Shown in pieces: positions 15,793 through 22,696 of a stretch of 25,129 nucleotides of DNA. The notes beneath the pieces are model-generated. The model ran no database searches. It was not told the origin of the DNA and saw only the letters and a program-made list of their open reading frames with translations. Within the stretch, counting starts at the first letter, position 1, and each line of letters starts with the position of its first letter. A program made the position numbers and the translations under genes. Origin of the DNA: a virus; IMG/VR virus record IMGVR_UViG_3300025151_000280, positions 1 through 25,129 of that record; one strand, given 5' to 3'.

Positions 15793-15813
15793 CCCTAACG
15801 TACGGAGGTTAAT

Positions 15814-16050
15814 ATGCCAGGAACTAGTGCACCAACTGCACCGACAGTAACTGTCATGTCCTTTCACAATGGTGGAAGGCTTAGGGACATGCAAGGGAAT
15901 ACCCCATCTGAGTTAGCTCAGACTATGGATATCTCTCTTGATGGTGTCGCTATATACGTAGATGATGCTGAAGCCAAGGCTTCTACACCGTTACGAGCTG
16001 GACAAGTTGTTTCTTTCCAAAAGAGCAAAGTGTCATCAGGTAGCAAGTAA
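15814..16050 (+). CDS. Ubiquitin-like beta-grasp protein (Ubl)
   Basis: 78 residues with an acggaggt site ahead of the ATG. After a flexible Ala/Pro/Thr head, VTVMSFHNGGRLRDM looks like the first beta hairpin, NTPSELAQTMDI the helix, and DGVAIYVDDAEA plus STPLRAGQVVSFQKSKVSSG the last strands. The closing segment follows the MoaD/ThiS/ubiquitin pattern 'T.L..G..V.f......G'. The C-terminus is SSGSK, so G76 is followed by two residues; conjugation through Gly would first need removal of Ser-Lys, a job for the JAB peptidase encoded nearby. Lysine acceptors K70, K72 and K78 are present. It opens the cassette with the same order as plasmid PRTRC modules. The fold is inferred from pattern and context rather than strong similarity; an unrelated small protein remains possible. 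Confidence 0.62.
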   Translation: MPGTSAPTAPTVTVMSFHNGGRLRDMQGNTPSELAQTMDISLDGVAIYVDDAEAKASTPLRAGQVVSFQKSKVSSGSK

Positions 16051-16067
16051 CAAGCACGTCTGCTAAG

Positions 16068-16126
16068 AGTATGTACTCGCAAGGTAATGTATCAACCAAT
16101 ACCAATAAGGGCCTTGCAGTCATACT
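16068..16126 (+). repeat. Intergenic inverted-repeat element 5 (inside the Ubl cassette)
   Basis: agtatg-t-act-c-gcaagg (16068-16084) pairs with ccttgc-agt-catact (16112-16126): 15 bp with two single-base bulges around a 27-base loop. It lies between the Ubl stop and the E2-like start. It could set different expression levels for a modifier needed in bulk and an enzyme needed in small amounts; that is inference. No T run follows. Confidence 0.62.
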
Positions 16127-16168
16127 TTAATTAATCAATCTTAAATCTAATAATAAAAGGAGATACAT

Positions 16169-17938
16169 ATGCTGTATTTTAAAAGTATATTGCCTCCAAG
16201 GATAGCTGACGTTGTATCATGTAACAATATTGCAATAGATACTAAAAGCGTTTCTTATGAGAATCGTATTAAAACGTTTTTCTTAAGAGTCTTTGGAAAA
16301 GATAAAGGCTTTATTGAAGATGAGGCATACTGGTCACTACTATGGAAAATGTTAAGTGACCCTAACAATCGTTATGGCATAGTTGCTATTGATGGATATT
16401 CTGATGATCCATTGGGCAAAGAAGACTATGCTTTAATATTAAATATGAAAGAACCTAGATTACGTGCTAGAAACATACATAATCTGGGTACTATATATAT
16501 GAAGTTTGATACTGATGGTAAAACATCGTATTACAATTCAACTACAGATTACTTTGATTTTTTAAATCAAGTACCTGCAAGACATCCTCATATATCAAAT
16601 GGAGAACCTTGTCTAGGTAATTATTCTACTAGACTAAGTAAATCTCAATATGAAGGTAATCCGCTTATGTGGTTAAAAGACATAAATCAATTCTTAAACA
16701 CCTGGAATGCTAATTCTGCGTATTATAACCTTAATACCACTCCAGAGAAAATGATATTTTATCCACGAAATATTAAACTTAAACCAAGAGAAATGTCTAG
16801 TTATAAGTATTTTGGCATTCTTAATAGTGTACAAAGCGATCATCGAACTTTTGCACTAGAGGCTTTAAGAGATGAGCTTATATGGAAAGTAAAATCAACA
16901 GATAGAAGGTCAGAGTTTGCAGTAGCTGGATTTGTAGCATCATTGTGTGGTGATATGTATGATAAATTTGCAGGGAACAGTACTGATGTTTATAAAAATA
17001 GTAAACATGCAGAATATATTGAAGACTTTAGAATCAATACGGGTAAAGTTTCTAGATTAGATAGTATCGGATGGGATATAATTAATACAGGAATAAACGT
17101 ACAAAATGAACAGCCTAGAATGATAGTAAGGTCGGATAATGGTTATATAAAGTTTGTTCAACTTAGCAGTGCTTATCTTAATTATCTTACTAGCACTTAT
17201 TTTGCTGAAGCTCGTTCTGCAATGAAATCAATGGGTTATACAATAGATTATATTATTAAAAGCCCAATTGCTGCAACAAACATACAAAAATACATAATAG
17301 AGATAGCACCTATTATATTAGAGAAATATGTAAAAGAGTATGTACCGATTATTATTGAGCAAAATAAAGTTCTAGCGGATTTAACTGTTAAAAATAAAAC
17401 AAAACGCAGATTAACATGTCATAATCCAGAGATTTATGATGCTGATTTAAATCCAGATACAGTTCATGCAATAGAAACCATATTAAAAGATTATTTTGAT
17501 CATTACAATAATATCAAAAGAAATCTTAAAAGAACATTCAAAAGTATTCTAGATGAGAAATTTTCATCTCTTGACGTTGATGCAATATACGATAAAAAGA
17601 CTGAAGAAGTTTTTGAGGTTAATGCATATCCAAAAGCATATGGAAGACCAGGTTCTTTTGATAATGTAGGTTATTACATGCAACATCAAGGTATTTATGA
17701 TGACGATAGATATAAAAAGCATCTTAAAACATTAGGTATAGAACAATATCCTAAAACGTTTAAAGAACTTATTGTCACTTATGAAAATCTTAAACATAAA
17801 GTACATGTAGAAATGTTAACTGCAAAGCAAGAAACACTAAACAAACAAATAATAAAAGAAGGAGGTATGTTGCATTATGGAAGTAAAGCTAATAATACCG
17901 AAGAAGATAGCACACAAGTACCGCTATCTTTTGACTAG
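16169..17938 (+). CDS. Large protein with E2-like ubiquitin-conjugating domain
   Basis: 589 residues with an aaaggag site. Residues about 50-180 carry the E2-like signature: strands ending in LGTIYMKFDT, a PARHPHISNGEPCLGNY segment and helices MWLKDINQFLNTW. In E2 enzymes 'HPnI..~G.iCL' places the catalytic cysteine, so C148 is the predicted thioester site and H139-P140-H141 the conserved turn. Prokaryotic E2-like families, including PRTRC protein B, share this 'HPH...CLG' form. The remaining 400 residues are unusual: a helical, Lys/Tyr/Ile-rich region with segments such as TYFAEARSAMKSMGYTIDYI and YYMQHQGIYDDDRYKKHLKT and no recognised domain. They may select substrates, in place of an E3. 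The gene overlaps the JAB gene by 62 nt. It would pass activated Ubl from the E1 to targets. Confidence 0.75.
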   Translation: MLYFKSILPPRIADVVSCNNIAIDTKSVSYENRIKTFFLRVFGKDKGFIEDEAYWSLLWKMLSDPNNRYGIVAIDGYSDDPLGKEDYALILNMKEPRLRARNIHNLGTIYMKFDTDGKTSYYNSTTDYFDFLNQVPARHPHISNGEPCLGNYSTRLSKSQYEGNPLMWLKDINQFLNTWNANSAYYNLNTTPEKMIFYPRNIKLKPREMSSYKYFGILNSVQSDHRTFALEALRDELIWKVKSTDRRSEFAVAGFVASLCGDMYDKFAGNSTDVYKNSKHAEYIEDFRINTGKVSRLDSIGWDIINTGINVQNEQPRMIVRSDNGYIKFVQLSSAYLNYLTSTYFAEARSAMKSMGYTIDYIIKSPIAATNIQKYIIEIAPIILEKYVKEYVPIIIEQNKVLADLTVKNKTKRRLTCHNPEIYDADLNPDTVHAIETILKDYFDHYNNIKRNLKRTFKSILDEKFSSLDVDAIYDKKTEEVFEVNAYPKAYGRPGSFDNVGYYMQHQGIYDDDRYKKHLKTLGIEQYPKTFKELIVTYENLKHKVHVEMLTAKQETLNKQIIKEGGMLHYGSKANNTEEDSTQVPLSFD

Positions 17939-18704
17939 ATTCAAAAACACAGAATGGTCAGGCCCAGCATTTTATCGTATTAAAACTAATGATAATGGGT
18001 TTCCAGAAGAGTTTAAAATAGTACATTTCCATCCATTAGACTTAGGTCATGGAACGGCTACTGATTTTGACGCTGGAGATGTGGCATCCATTCTTAAAGA
18101 AACTTATCAAAAGTATCCATCTCTAAAGCATTGCTATATGGGACTGATACACAGCCATCATACAATGGGTGCATTTCTGTCAAGTACAGATAAAGACACT
18201 ATATTAGAAATGGCTCCAACAGAAGGTTTCTACGCTAGTTTAGTCGTAGCAAGTCAAGGTAAAGCAACTGAAGCCTTTGGTTTTAGTTATGTAGATCAAT
18301 ATGGACAAGCACATGCTATGATAATTGACGAAGATAAAATTGATATACAACTACCAGAGTATAAAGTGGAAGATGACTGGATAGAGCAAGCAGATACAAT
18401 TGAAAAGAATAAACCAGTACCACTTAATAATGTTGGAAAACAAACTCAAATATGGCGTCATAATCAAAACACTCAAACAGCAACCGAAATACGTTTAGCT
18501 AAATATTCTAAATCTAAACAAAATAAGATAAGCAAAGTCTTAGATAAGTATGAAGATGGCAAGCTTAATGAAGTTGATGCAGAAGCTAAGCTAGAACGTT
18601 TAGGTTGTAATGAAGTAGACATAATATTCTTTATGGATGATGCAAGTAAAACTCAAGCGTATAACTATGGATATAGCTACGGAGGTTACTATGGAGGATA
18701 CTAG
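17877..18704 (+). CDS. JAB/JAMM-domain metallopeptidase
   Basis: 275 residues. The JAMM site is complete: E26 (TEWSGP) as general base and H92-S93-H94, seven residues, S102 and D105 (IHSHHTMGAFLSSTD), exactly HxH-x7-S-xx-D. Such enzymes cut isopeptide or peptide bonds after Gly of ubiquitin-like proteins and need Zn. Predicted jobs here are to remove Ser-Lys from the Ubl precursor and to release Ubl from targets. After the domain (about 1-155) come an acidic linker, a helical segment (NKISKVLDKYEDGKLNEVDA) resembling short SHOCT-type helices, and an aromatic tail (YNYGYSYGGYYGGY). The ATG lies 11 nt after ggagg, inside the E2-like gene. The start of the E1 gene overlaps its end by 14 nt. Confidence 0.9.
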   Translation: MEVKLIIPKKIAHKYRYLLTRFKNTEWSGPAFYRIKTNDNGFPEEFKIVHFHPLDLGHGTATDFDAGDVASILKETYQKYPSLKHCYMGLIHSHHTMGAFLSSTDKDTILEMAPTEGFYASLVVASQGKATEAFGFSYVDQYGQAHAMIIDEDKIDIQLPEYKVEDDWIEQADTIEKNKPVPLNNVGKQTQIWRHNQNTQTATEIRLAKYSKSKQNKISKVLDKYEDGKLNEVDAEAKLERLGCNEVDIIFFMDDASKTQAYNYGYSYGGYYGGY

Positions 18705-19356
18705 GTTCTTACGCAATAAAGACCTTATCCCTCAGGGTAAGCTTAACAAGATAGCTATTATAGGACTAGGAGGTATCGGCTCACAGCTGGTACCTCTATT
18801 GTCTATTATGGGTTTTAAAAATATTGTAGGTTATGACTACGATACACTTGAAGAACATAACTTGAGTACAACATTGTATCCTCAAACAGCTCTTGGGGTA
18901 AGCAAAGCTGAAATAGCAGGAAATACATCTAAACTATATGCTGTAAATCCTGATGGTATGAAGTTTCACAACGAACCATATACTGAAAAAAGCCCTGCTT
19001 TCCCAAAAATGATTGTTTGTACAGACAATATGGAATCAAGACTGGTAGCTTACAATAAATGGCTAGAACAACCTAATAGGCAACTATTTTTAGATTTGCG
19101 TATGGGTGCTATGGCTATGGAAATTGTTACAACAACTAAAGAACATGATAACTACTTAGATACCTGGGCTCCAACACACGAAATAGGTGAAGAGCCTTGT
19201 ACAATGAAGCATACTATCTTTACAGCTTCAATTGTAGGTGGATTAGGAGTTGATCAGGTCTTTAATGTTGTTGCAAAAAGAGCTTATTATCAGTATATTT
19301 GGTTAGGCTTAATGCCTCTACAAATACGAACAGACAACTTAGTAACTAAAGGATAA
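18691..19356 (+). CDS. E1/ThiF-family adenylating enzyme
   Basis: 221 residues from ATG 18691, chosen because acggaggt lies just upstream; a longer frame from 18637 lies within the JAB gene. The Rossmann start IAIIGLGGIGSQLV gives the ATP loop (G25-x-G27-G28-x-G30). Next come the acidic pair D49/D51 (YDYDTLEEHNL), VCTDNMESR with D112 and R117, and a candidate catalytic cysteine C160 in EEPCTMKHTIFTAS, close to the 'PCT' environment of E1 enzymes. The usual Arg after 'NL' is replaced (NLSTTLYP). It would adenylate the C-terminal Gly of the Ubl, form a thioester and hand it to the E2-like protein. The protein is short, with no separate Ub-fold domain, as in ThiF/MoeB and PRTRC ThiF. It ends 2 nt before the Sak4-like gene. 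Confidence 0.9.
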   Translation: MEDTRFLRNKDLIPQGKLNKIAIIGLGGIGSQLVPLLSIMGFKNIVGYDYDTLEEHNLSTTLYPQTALGVSKAEIAGNTSKLYAVNPDGMKFHNEPYTEKSPAFPKMIVCTDNMESRLVAYNKWLEQPNRQLFLDLRMGAMAMEIVTTTKEHDNYLDTWAPTHEIGEEPCTMKHTIFTASIVGGLGVDQVFNVVAKRAYYQYIWLGLMPLQIRTDNLVTKG

Positions 19357-19358
19357 TT

Positions 19359-20225
19359 ATGGACATTAAAGTAAGAAAAGTGTCTACTGATTGGTCTAAA
19401 TTGCCTCATGGGCTGACTTGGTATTTTATCGGTCAGCCCAAAACGGGCAAGACTACACAGGCTAGTAAGTGGAGCGATAAAGGTTCTAAAGGTGTATTAT
19501 TAATTGATACAGATTTAGGATCAGACTTTGTTAATGAAGCTAATACTGTTACAGTTACATCTTTAAATACTCCTACTAGACCTCAAATGGTTGATGGTAA
19601 GCAAGTAACTAAAGGTGGCAAACCTGTAATAGAAGCTGTCCCTCACGATGAGCGGGGGTATTACCATAGAACTGGTGATGAAACTGGTGAGCCAATGGAA
19701 GTATATTCTATGATAGAAGTATATTTCTGGCTTAAAGAAAACCTAAAATCCCTTCCATACGATACAATCGTTATCGATACTATAGACCACGTTAACAGAT
19801 GGATAGAAGCAGAAGTTTGTGACGAACGTGGACAAGCCGCTATGGGCGAAGGTGCATCATGGGGTGCAGACTGGGCTCAAGCAAGAAAGAAAAATCTTGA
19901 TATCGTCAAGAAATTTCAAACATTATGCAAGCAACTAGGTAGAAACCTAGTATTAATATCGCATGCAAAAACAACTGTCATAACAGATGGAAAAAGTCAG
20001 TTAGGGCCAGAGTTACCACGTGGTCTCTCTTATGCTTTAACTGCATCAGCAGATGTGATAGGGTACGCTACAGCTAGTAAAGAAGATGGAAAATTCTATG
20101 TTTCTTTTAAAGCTTATGATGAAAGAACTGTAGGCAGTAGGCTAAAGCCACTTGCTCAGAAAGTTCTTGATTTTGATTATGGTAGCGTAATGAATGAAAT
20201 CCTAAAATACAAAGAACAGGAGTAA
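19359..20225 (+). CDS. Sak4-like RecA-fold ATPase (single-strand annealing)
   Basis: 288 residues with an aaagga site. Walker A is GQPKTGKTT (25-33), followed by VLLIDTDLGSDFV, the AAA_24/Sak4 form in which the segment after the first Asp is short. Walker B is in YDTIVIDTIDHV (about 129-140), and LVLISHAKTT supplies the sensor-like strand. Sak4 proteins are single-domain RecA relatives that promote annealing with an SSB partner; the SSB-like gene follows 3 nt downstream. The protein probably repairs or recombines replicating phage DNA. It directly follows the E1 gene, so the Ubl cassette and the recombination module appear to be one transcript. Confidence 0.85.
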   Translation: MDIKVRKVSTDWSKLPHGLTWYFIGQPKTGKTTQASKWSDKGSKGVLLIDTDLGSDFVNEANTVTVTSLNTPTRPQMVDGKQVTKGGKPVIEAVPHDERGYYHRTGDETGEPMEVYSMIEVYFWLKENLKSLPYDTIVIDTIDHVNRWIEAEVCDERGQAAMGEGASWGADWAQARKKNLDIVKKFQTLCKQLGRNLVLISHAKTTVITDGKSQLGPELPRGLSYALTASADVIGYATASKEDGKFYVSFKAYDERTVGSRLKPLAQKVLDFDYGSVMNEILKYKEQE

Positions 20226-20228
20226 AAT

Positions 20229-20873
20229 ATGCCGTTTAGAGGTATGAATCCAGTAGCAGATGCTAAGCCAGAATTTACTGGTACACCAAACTGGCTTGGC
20301 TTTCAAGAAGTAGCTATGACTGACGTCTTAGATAGAACAAGTGAGTTCGAAAACTTAGATATGTTTGTTGAAATACATTTTAAGAATGGGAACTCAGAAT
20401 ATCCGTATAAATATGCTTTGCTAGGGACTTTTGATAAAGACCCGCAGGGTAATATTAGCGGAGATAGTGGTCTATTAAAGCGCATAGTCTATCTTTGCGA
20501 TGCTTTAGGATGGAAAGGTGGAGTTAATAAAGAAGGTGAATGGGTTGATGAAAACGATAAGAAAATCGATGACATCGCTGGTTACCTTAACCTTAACTTT
20601 ACTGCTGCTAACTACGGACTTAAAGGAGATGATGTTGATCATGAGAAATATTATATTTTTGTTTATAAGAAATTAAACAAGAAAGATAATAAAGCTTATA
20701 CAACTGTATGTCCTAAAATAGCCCAAAACGAAGATAGGTCAAAAGCTGATTTAGAAAGCTATGTTGACTGGATGAAGGCTAATAAGTACATCGTAGAACA
20801 CAATGAGAAAGCACCAGAAAATGATGTTTCCAATGGTACCGCTGCCAATGGATCACCATTTGACAAATTCTAG
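20229..20873 (+). CDS. Probable single-stranded-DNA-binding protein
   Basis: 214 residues, beta-rich, with an early segment MPFRGMNPVADAKPEFTGTP, a long strand set (MFVEIHFKNGNSEYPYKYAL) and a helical middle. The acidic C-terminal end finishes NGSPFDKF, similar in style to the acidic, aromatic tip of SSB proteins that recruits partners. I cannot point to a conserved OB motif, so the assignment rests on its position between a Sak4-like ATPase and a primase-helicase, its size and its tail. Its stop and the next GTG start share a base (TAGTG). Confidence 0.6.
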   Translation: MPFRGMNPVADAKPEFTGTPNWLGFQEVAMTDVLDRTSEFENLDMFVEIHFKNGNSEYPYKYALLGTFDKDPQGNISGDSGLLKRIVYLCDALGWKGGVNKEGEWVDENDKKIDDIAGYLNLNFTAANYGLKGDDVDHEKYYIFVYKKLNKKDNKAYTTVCPKIAQNEDRSKADLESYVDWMKANKYIVEHNEKAPENDVSNGTAANGSPFDKF

Positions 20874-22696
20874 TGCAACTCTATCACGAAATAGCAATAG
20901 GTAGCCCTCGTAACAGAGGGCTACTTATTCCAGAAGAACAAGTTATAGACGTTTTACTTAAAAAAGGTAGAAACGAAGCTGTATACAAAAGTCTATATTT
21001 ATATGACGAAGAAGGCAAAGAGTATCATAAAATTAAAAAGACATTTAAGGACTTTTTAGGCAAAAGATACATAAGAAATGTACTTATAGACATAGATAAA
21101 AGCCAAAATACAGATGATTATACACTTAATAAAACAAAAAGTGTATTGTTTGAATTAGAAGAACTTGGAGTACAGCAACGTTCTTACCAAATCTATTTTA
21201 GCGGAACTGGATATCATATAGAAATAAGTGAAGAAGTATTTAATTATCCTCAAGGGGATAATGACTTACCATTTATTGTAAAAGAAACAATGAATAATTT
21301 ATTCAGTGACATAGATTTAGCTGTATACAATAGAACGTCAATATATAGATGCGAAAATACTCTTAATCAAAAATCAAATCTATATAAAATACCATTAAGC
21401 CATGAGCAATTGCAAATATGCACAGCTCAGGATATAATGAAAAATGCACAAAGTCAATCAAGCATAGCATTAGATCCTATATGGGGAGATGGTGAATTAG
21501 AAGATAAGGTAATACGAGAAATACCGAAAGTAAGAATACTGCAATCAAATGCAGAACCTACCAATATAGTTCCATGTGTTCAAAAGATGTATAAACTTGG
21601 CCCCGAAGAAGGATCAAGAAATAATACTTTGATGCGAATAGCATCCCATTTCTTTAGACATGGAATACCAAGTGAAGCTGCAAAGGCTGCACTACTACAT
21701 TGGAACAACAATCAATTACAAGACAGTGTAATAATTAAAAAAGTAGAAGACACATATAGCGGTGGATATAAATACGGATGTAAAGATGTGTTAATGGAAA
21801 AACATTGTCAACCTAATTGTATTCATTACAAACGTAAAGATTATCTCGTAGATGTTAAGAGTAGTGACGAACTACAAACAGAGCTAGCATCACGGCTAGA
21901 AACAGATTTTTCTGGACGTGTTATAGATTTAGCTAAGTTATTTGGAGTAGAAGATAAAGACGCAACAATATATCCAGGTGAATTAGTAACTATATTTGGC
22001 TCTACAGGTGCTAATAAAACAGCTTTAGCACAAAACATAGTATTAGGGTACAATGCTGAAGACGATGAAATTAAAAGAGAAGCACAAGTACCTACACTAT
22101 TCTTATCATTAGAATTATCTGGATTTGTAATGCACAGACGAAATCTGCAGATAGTATCAGGGACGAGTAAAGATGAAGTTGTTAAAAACTATCAAAAATT
22201 ATATGAATATCACAAAGAAGAACTAAGTCATATAATTATGCAATCGGTAAGCCCTACAATACAACAAATACAAGAAAAGATAAAGCAATTACAGCCTAAA
22301 TGCGTTGTAATAGACTATATAGACCTAGTAGATGTTCCCTACAATAAACGTGGAGAATACGAAAAGCTAAACTATATCAGTCACAGCTTATCTAATATAG
22401 CGGTAAATGATGACATTATTATAATACAGATATCACAAGTATCTAGAGATTATTCTCGTAATCAAATAATGGACTTATATGCTGCTAAAGGTAGTGGTGC
22501 AATAGAAAACGCATCACGAAAGGTTATAGGTATTACTGGTTCATCAGAAACAGCAGATAAAAAGATGAGCATTTACAAAAATAGTGACGGTGATCTATTT
22601 GAAGTTGAACTACAATGGACACCATCATTCCGTTTAAAGAAAAAGCCTACCATGTATAGCCACGCACTTGGCGGTAGGTTTACAATCCAGGAGTAA
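20873..22696 (+). CDS. AEP primase-DnaB-type helicase fusion
   Basis: 607 residues from a GTG overlapping the preceding stop. The N-terminal primase is of the archaeo-eukaryotic type: D73 and D75 (NVLIDIDKSQN), the S110-H115 motif (FSGTGYHIEIS), D148 with R154 (DIDLAVYNRT) and the basic loop SNLYKIPL. A PriCT-like helical unit (SRNNTLMRIASHFFRHGIPS) and a Cys/His cluster (C303, C312, C316, H318; CKDVLMEKHCQPNCIHYK) follow. The C-terminal part (about 345-607) is a DnaB/RecA-type motor, with Walker A GSTGANKT (376-383), Walker B CVVIDYIDLV and the motif IIIIQISQVSRD. Walker A carries Asn where Gly is usual before Lys. The protein would prime and unwind DNA at the phage fork. Confidence 0.86.
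   Translation: MQLYHEIAIGSPRNRGLLIPEEQVIDVLLKKGRNEAVYKSLYLYDEEGKEYHKIKKTFKDFLGKRYIRNVLIDIDKSQNTDDYTLNKTKSVLFELEELGVQQRSYQIYFSGTGYHIEISEEVFNYPQGDNDLPFIVKETMNNLFSDIDLAVYNRTSIYRCENTLNQKSNLYKIPLSHEQLQICTAQDIMKNAQSQSSIALDPIWGDGELEDKVIREIPKVRILQSNAEPTNIVPCVQKMYKLGPEEGSRNNTLMRIASHFFRHGIPSEAAKAALLHWNNNQLQDSVIIKKVEDTYSGGYKYGCKDVLMEKHCQPNCIHYKRKDYLVDVKSSDELQTELASRLETDFSGRVIDLAKLFGVEDKDATIYPGELVTIFGSTGANKTALAQNIVLGYNAEDDEIKREAQVPTLFLSLELSGFVMHRRNLQIVSGTSKDEVVKNYQKLYEYHKEELSHIIMQSVSPTIQQIQEKIKQLQPKCVVIDYIDLVDVPYNKRGEYEKLNYISHSLSNIAVNDDIIIIQISQVSRDYSRNQIMDLYAAKGSGAIENASRKVIGITGSSETADKKMSIYKNSDGDLFEVELQWTPSFRLKKKPTMYSHALGGRFTIQE

Follow-up and report, generated by a model that had tools for sequence, protein, structure and literature searches.

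A phage gene cassette that probably encodes a ubiquitin-like protein-conjugation cascade beside replication genes

The linear virus record IMGVR_UViG_3300025151_000280 (25,129 bases, analysed as a whole and called the window here) carries between positions 15814 and 19356 four consecutive genes on the plus strand, which encode, in order, a ubiquitin-like protein (Ubl), an E2-like protein, a JAMM (JAB) peptidase and a ThiF/UBA-type E1. From sequence comparison and structure prediction, we consider that this cassette probably encodes a ubiquitin-like protein-conjugation cascade of the phage. The proposal draws on the fold or family of the Ubl, the E1 and the JAMM peptidase, the catalytic residues of all four proteins, conserved synteny, purifying selection and the precursor-like terminus of the Ubl; we infer the E2 fold, the order of the reactions, the role of the E2 helical domain and the class of target. 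A preliminary description of the window had recognised signatures of all four components in consecutive genes. That complete set is confirmed, all four open reading frames (ORFs) lying within the interval and coordinates, conserved residues, profiles and synteny being in agreement, and its interpretation as a phage tool for modifying proteins or blocking host Ubl-based defence is partly supported. All features below are on the plus strand of the window unless a relative is named.

Results

The Ubl is a 78-aa protein (15814-16050) whose gene is preceded by a GGAGG Shine-Dalgarno sequence (15804-15808). As a single sequence, short and diverged, it gave only a weak Pfam match to ThiS (E 0.075). 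The family profile built from 31 sequences matched ThiS (2e-4), SAMP2 and MoaD in the PDB, and the AlphaFold2 (AF2) model (pLDDT 78) is a beta-grasp that Foldseek assigns with probability 1.0 to the ubiquitin, SUMO and TtuB folds. The preliminary description had made its reading depend on a beta-grasp match for this protein, and both the profile and the Foldseek search provide one.

The Ubl terminus resembles that of a precursor. Ser75-Gly76 (16036-16041), followed in the window by Ser-Lys, is invariant in the 31 aligned Ubls, and the Ser-Gly is retained in every Ubl listed, at the end, near the end or ahead of an extension, leaving in all of them a C-terminal glycine that is either exposed or exposable. 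It is exactly terminal in the Ubls of loci L079, L083, L095 and L097; most Ubls have 1-2 residues beyond it, as in the SGSK of the window, and others carry extensions of up to ~200 residues. The sequence KKIKSG of crAss001, cr128 and DAC17 is followed, in the same protein, by a further domain whose acidic, aromatic C-terminus is conserved. In cr106 this domain is an ORF of its own, separated from the Ubl by an HNH gene, which fits a precursor that is processed after the glycine. A masked C-terminal glycine, or an extension behind it, is the pattern of ubiquitin and SUMO precursors and of ubiquitin fusions. A JAMM peptidase gene accompanies the precursor-like Ubl, and the sequences suggest that the precursor would be cleaved after Ser-Gly. 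The arrangement in crAss-like phage cr106_1 (locus L003, 1677-2880), where an HNH endonuclease gene splits the Ubl from a domain that is fused to it elsewhere, is also an observation in its own right.

The JAMM peptidase (275 aa, 17877-18704) matches Prok-JAB weakly, at an E-value of 5e-4 that lies under the Pfam curated cut-off. Its metal site is complete as first described, in that E26, H92, H94, S102 and D105 are invariant across 17 homologues, the last four forming the motif HSH-x7-S-x2-D (18150-18191). Plasmid relatives of this protein were sought and none was found. The E1 contains an unmistakable adenylation domain, with matches to Pfam ThiF at 4e-11 and, in profile searches of the PDB, to UBA6 and UBA5 at ~6e-12, as well as MccB and SAE2. 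The GxGGxG loop and the PCT cysteine ascribed to it are borne out by these matches and by conservation of the nucleotide-binding loop GLGGIGS (18763-18783), D130 and the catalytic Cys188 in PCTMKHT (codon 19198-19200); the cysteine is invariant in 15 homologues, including those of crAss-like phages and Flavobacterium phage FpV4. From the start that is kept in relatives, the E1 gene spans 18691-19356, which corrects the listed ORF start at 18637.

The E2 and JAB genes overlap by 62 nt. In the window and several relatives, the GGAGG Shine-Dalgarno sequence of the E1 gene sits within Tyr-Gly-Gly-Tyr codons of the JAB tail, which argues for coupled expression and explains, at least partly, the Tyr/Gly-rich composition of that tail. 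In the window this dual-purpose stretch, where the JAB C-terminus overlaps the E1 gene, lies at 18660-18704.

The E2-like protein (589 aa, 16169-17938) was analysed through an alignment of 35 homologues, down to ~15% identity, and an AF2 model (pLDDT 86). Its only invariant columns are H139, P140, H141, C148, G150 and W179, of which the first five belong to the predicted active-site motif HPHISNGEPCLG (16583-16618). This motif, conserved as HPH[IVL]..C.G, contains an HPN-like element and the candidate catalytic Cys148; the corresponding motif of crAss-like and Flavobacterium phages is HSH..C.G. When the E2 core was compared with UBC by hhalign, it scored 22.1, with HPHISNGEPCLG placed on HPNINSNGSICL, that is, at HPN..C of the UBC family. 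This score, obtained with a small UBC reference set (five human UBC sequences and the E2 of a Crinalium plasmid), exceeds the best of 100 column shuffles (18.0) and three other families. The confident AF2 model passes from helices through a beta-meander, the active site and two further helices to ~350 helical residues and a disordered tail, and its topology is UBC-like. The long helical part constitutes a hypervariable domain (residues 191-565; 16739-17863). Relatives were recovered with the family alignment, whereas pattern scanning that used only the window E2 retrieved none.

The cassette is not peculiar to this record. Scanning IMG/VR with the E1 profile gave 463 matching stretches that encode a relative, and of 140 loci collected, for the most part from marine IMG/VR contigs and in some cases overlapping on one contig, 90 preserve the intact order Ubl-E2-JAB-E1, most of the remainder being truncated. 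The search for conserved synteny in viral metagenomes, proposed with the preliminary description, therefore returned a positive answer. Sak4, an SSB-like protein and a primase-helicase are encoded downstream of the cassette in relatives, too. By tblastn, the E1 and JAB were also found in cultured phages, namely crAss-like Steigviridae, including crAss001, DAC15 and DAC17, and Flavobacterium phages. crAss001 (gp79-gp78-gp77-gp76) and FpV4 have a diverged cassette in the same order, namely a Ubl-containing protein, an E2-like protein, a JAMM protein and an E1, near genes for a primase, a uracil-DNA glycosylase, a Holliday-junction resolvase and an exonuclease. The carriers thus comprise a large group of phages from the ocean and some cultured phages of gut and fish bacteria. 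Immediately after E1, crAss-like phages and FpV4 have one more uncharacterised gene (L166, 7339-8151; L002, 6762-7511; L004, 6672-7760; gp75 in crAss001), which may be a fifth component there.

Among ~85,000 bacterial and archaeal genomes scanned, we found seven ThiF relatives and no clear bacterial member of the cassette. The sole strong match among the seven, L152 from a Spirochaetia metagenome-assembled genome, clusters with crAss001, and its contig probably belongs to a crAss-like phage and was mis-binned. In the E1 tree, marine phages (support 98/98), crAss phages (95/93) and PRTRC plasmid modules (99/98) form separate groups, and the node that joins all phage E1s is weakly supported (76/72). 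The lineage is widespread and apparently confined to viruses. In the open-access literature, which leaves subscription journals outside its coverage, we found no paper describing a phage-borne Ubl/E2/JAB/E1 set.

All four genes are under purifying selection, as the ratio of non-synonymous to synonymous substitution rates (dN/dS) is far under 1 in nearly all pairs. Among close relatives the Ubl and E1 each stand at ~0.1, JAB at ~0.2 and the E2 core at ~0.3, and most values of the E2 helical domain fall within 0.3-0.65. Together with the synteny, these values indicate that the cassette is more than a chance assembly. The helical domain is the fastest-diverging part: at a median E1 identity of 72%, it retains 17%, compared with 38% for the E2 core, 84% for Sak4 and 78% for the primase-helicase. 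A conserved E2 catalytic core joined to a fast-changing candidate module for target recognition would be the natural reading of this pattern; relaxed constraint on the helical domain is another possible one.

Directly downstream of the cassette lie a Sak4-like annealing/ATPase gene (19359-20225; phrog_124, 3e-25), which comes after E1 in relatives as well, an SSB-like gene (20229-20873) and a primase-helicase gene (20873-22696; PriCT_1 and DnaB_C matches). The SSB-like gene is named from its position and the acidic-aromatic C-terminus of its product, which had no family match in scans of Pfam/PHROG-type libraries. The cassette is phage-encoded and adjoins recombination genes, as first described, and the claim that it has no CD-NTase or ParB-like partner agrees with our scan, in which neither was recognised among the proteins near it. 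Two features of relatives were recorded in passing. An ORF with the radical-SAM-like cysteine cluster CLLNCSYCY lies immediately 5' of the Ubl gene in G007 (16236-17111, locus L149), and an ORF of 3,323 aa, possibly for an internal virion protein, runs on the strand opposite to the replication genes in G001 (20534-30505, locus L141).

The E2 tail offers a lead about the target. In 18 of 23 lineages it reads QVPLSF (17915-17932 in the window), QVHLSF, QIPLFF, QAELF, QSELF or a similar sequence; FpV4 E2 ends in QVPL, and the crAss E2s do not have the motif. QxxLxF and QxxLF resemble bacterial clamp-binding motifs. The same nucleotides also encode the N-terminal helix of JAB, and in most lineages the motif stands at one position of the JAB frame. 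Random synonymous recoding of JAB produced the motif in 0 to 100% of the stop-free simulations, which were often few, and 8% of other ORF tails match QxxL(x)F. Because the overlapping JAB coding can itself generate the motif, we downgraded the tail from proof of clamp binding to a lead. Neither the window nor eight relatives of 35-53 kb yielded PolA, Pol III alpha or the clamp C-terminal domain; nor was PolB found in the same eight relatives, the window itself not having been searched for it. Of the relatives, G007 is probably complete, at 53.4 kb and with a 123-base end repeat. That the tail recruits E2 to the host sliding clamp, with the Ubl conjugated to the clamp or to clamp-bound proteins, is a doubtful proposition. 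If true, this would be the viral equivalent of PCNA ubiquitylation, used by phages in which neither a DNA polymerase nor a clamp is recognisable.

Discussion

By its sequence features, the cassette would work like the conjugation modules of PRTRC, Bil and CBASS, and by the tests made it is a member of none of them. The closest parallel in layout is PRTRC, which is comparable to the type 6d operons of Iyer, Burroughs and Aravind 2006 (PMC1779556) and has Ubl, E2-like, JAB and E1 genes in the identical order C-B-A-ThiF on mobile elements. This likeness, drawn in the preliminary description, was verified in L163, where an extra gene stands between C and B. Both systems have C-x-G at the E2 cysteine, and two PRTRC Ubl candidates end in a single glycine. 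In contrast, the phage E2 has HPH, a histidine absent from PRTRC E2s, and a fused helical domain, and four PRTRC E1s form a clade of their own apart from the phage E1s. The anti-phage operon Bil (BilABCD) likewise has Ubl, E2, JAMM and E1 in four separate genes. It differs in that BilA carries a pair of Ubl domains, BilB has a CEHH motif, and BilD combines an inactive adenylation domain with a Cys domain (PMC11354881); the phage-borne cassette has a single Ubl, an HPH..C E2 and a short E1. Type II CBASS Cap2/Cap3 and 6A-MBL share the E1, E2 and JAB chemistry, but Cap2 fuses E1 to E2, while the genes here are separate, no CD-NTase or MBL partner was recognised, and the PADLOC E1-E2 models match the ThiF part alone. 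The Ubl and JAB genes of TAPI/TAPK type in phages belong to tail-assembly operons without E1 and E2 (PMC1779556), whereas all four components are present here, in the replication arm. The Crinalium plasmid pCRI9333.03 has an E1, small proteins, a UBC-type E2 and a JAB on a mobile element, but in another gene order, with an E2 that matches UQ_con directly and an E1 outside the phage group.

Several results weigh against a conjugation cascade. The Ubl ends in SG rather than GG, the 589-aa protein has no convincing match in Pfam, PHROG or NCBIfam and none to any E2 family model, and the E2s of crAss-like phages and FpV4 align with the marine E2 at the motif alone and with low probability. Searched by Foldseek against the PDB and BFVD, the full-length E2 model did not retrieve UBC, probably because its score is governed mostly by the helical domain. 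Since the whole-chain search missed UBC, we take the UBC fold around C148, to which the motif, the topology and a modest profile match point, as likely rather than proven. The HPHI...CLG motif reported at the outset stands, and the E2 identity that went with it is backed by hhalign and topology and not by Foldseek. The missing UBC matches could also mean that the protein is no E2, its HPHI..C.G being a coincidental metal-binding or structural motif and the pathway consisting of E1, JAB and Ubl. This is quite improbable in view of the invariant HPH and cysteine, the hhalign alignment, which pairs the right residues and outscores the shuffles, the UBC-like topology and the fixed position of the gene between Ubl and JAB. 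We think even less of a sulfur carrier for base or cofactor modification that would tag no protein, which the top profile matches of the Ubl (ThiS, MoaD, SAMP2) and the ThiF match of the E1 might suggest. E2s do not take part in ThiS/MoaD pathways, and the operons of these pathways contain no JAB (the latter from PMC1779556), whereas intact loci always contain an E2 with an invariant cysteine and a JAMM protein, and no sulfurtransferase or modification enzyme was recognised next to the cassette.

The main alternative for the purpose of the cassette is counter-defence, in which either the whole cascade or just JAMM and Ubl would strip host conjugates or compete for them, and so block or hijack the Ubl-based immunity of the host (Bil, type II CBASS). 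Host defences rely on this same chemistry (PMC10097602, PMC11153139), and the very fast evolution of the E2 helical domain is reminiscent of an arms race. Even so, we judge it unlikely, as a blocker would not need an entire cascade complete with E1 and E2, and the cassette, which is retained across phages from differing environments, neighbours core replication genes in three phage groups instead of occupying an accessory region. A PRTRC plasmid-maintenance module, captured and now serving genome maintenance, would account for the shared gene order, the C-x-G at the E2 cysteine and the match of the phage E1 profile to PRTRC E1s. It seems highly improbable, given that no ParB-like, protein E or protein F partner was recognised among the neighbouring ORFs scanned and that, of the PRTRC models, only PRTRC_ThiF hit a window protein, with 19 bits against a cut-off of 145; the isolated E1 clades also weigh against recent capture.

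In the conjugation cascade that we favour, the JAMM peptidase would trim the Ubl precursor behind the conserved Ser-Gly, and E1 would adenylate the exposed glycine with ATP, carry the Ubl on Cys188 and hand it over to Cys148 of E2. Without a separate E3, E2 may select the target lysine through its fast-evolving helical domain, and the JAMM enzyme could take the tag off again. The likeliest target is a protein of phage or host that serves replication, recombination or repair, or else a host defence factor at work in that setting, since three distantly related phage groups all carry the cassette amid their replication and recombination genes.

Complete E1-E2-Ubl-JAMM cascades are already known from bacterial, archaeal and plasmid operons, including several anti-phage defences. 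The position of this cassette among DNA-replication genes suggests that these viruses, too, chemically tag proteins during infection. If ocean and gut phages indeed maintain a virus-restricted lineage next to their core replication genes, phages would run ubiquitin-like signalling of their own and would be one reservoir of such Ubl systems, and the cultured crAss001 makes a role of a prokaryotic Ubl cascade outside host defence testable.

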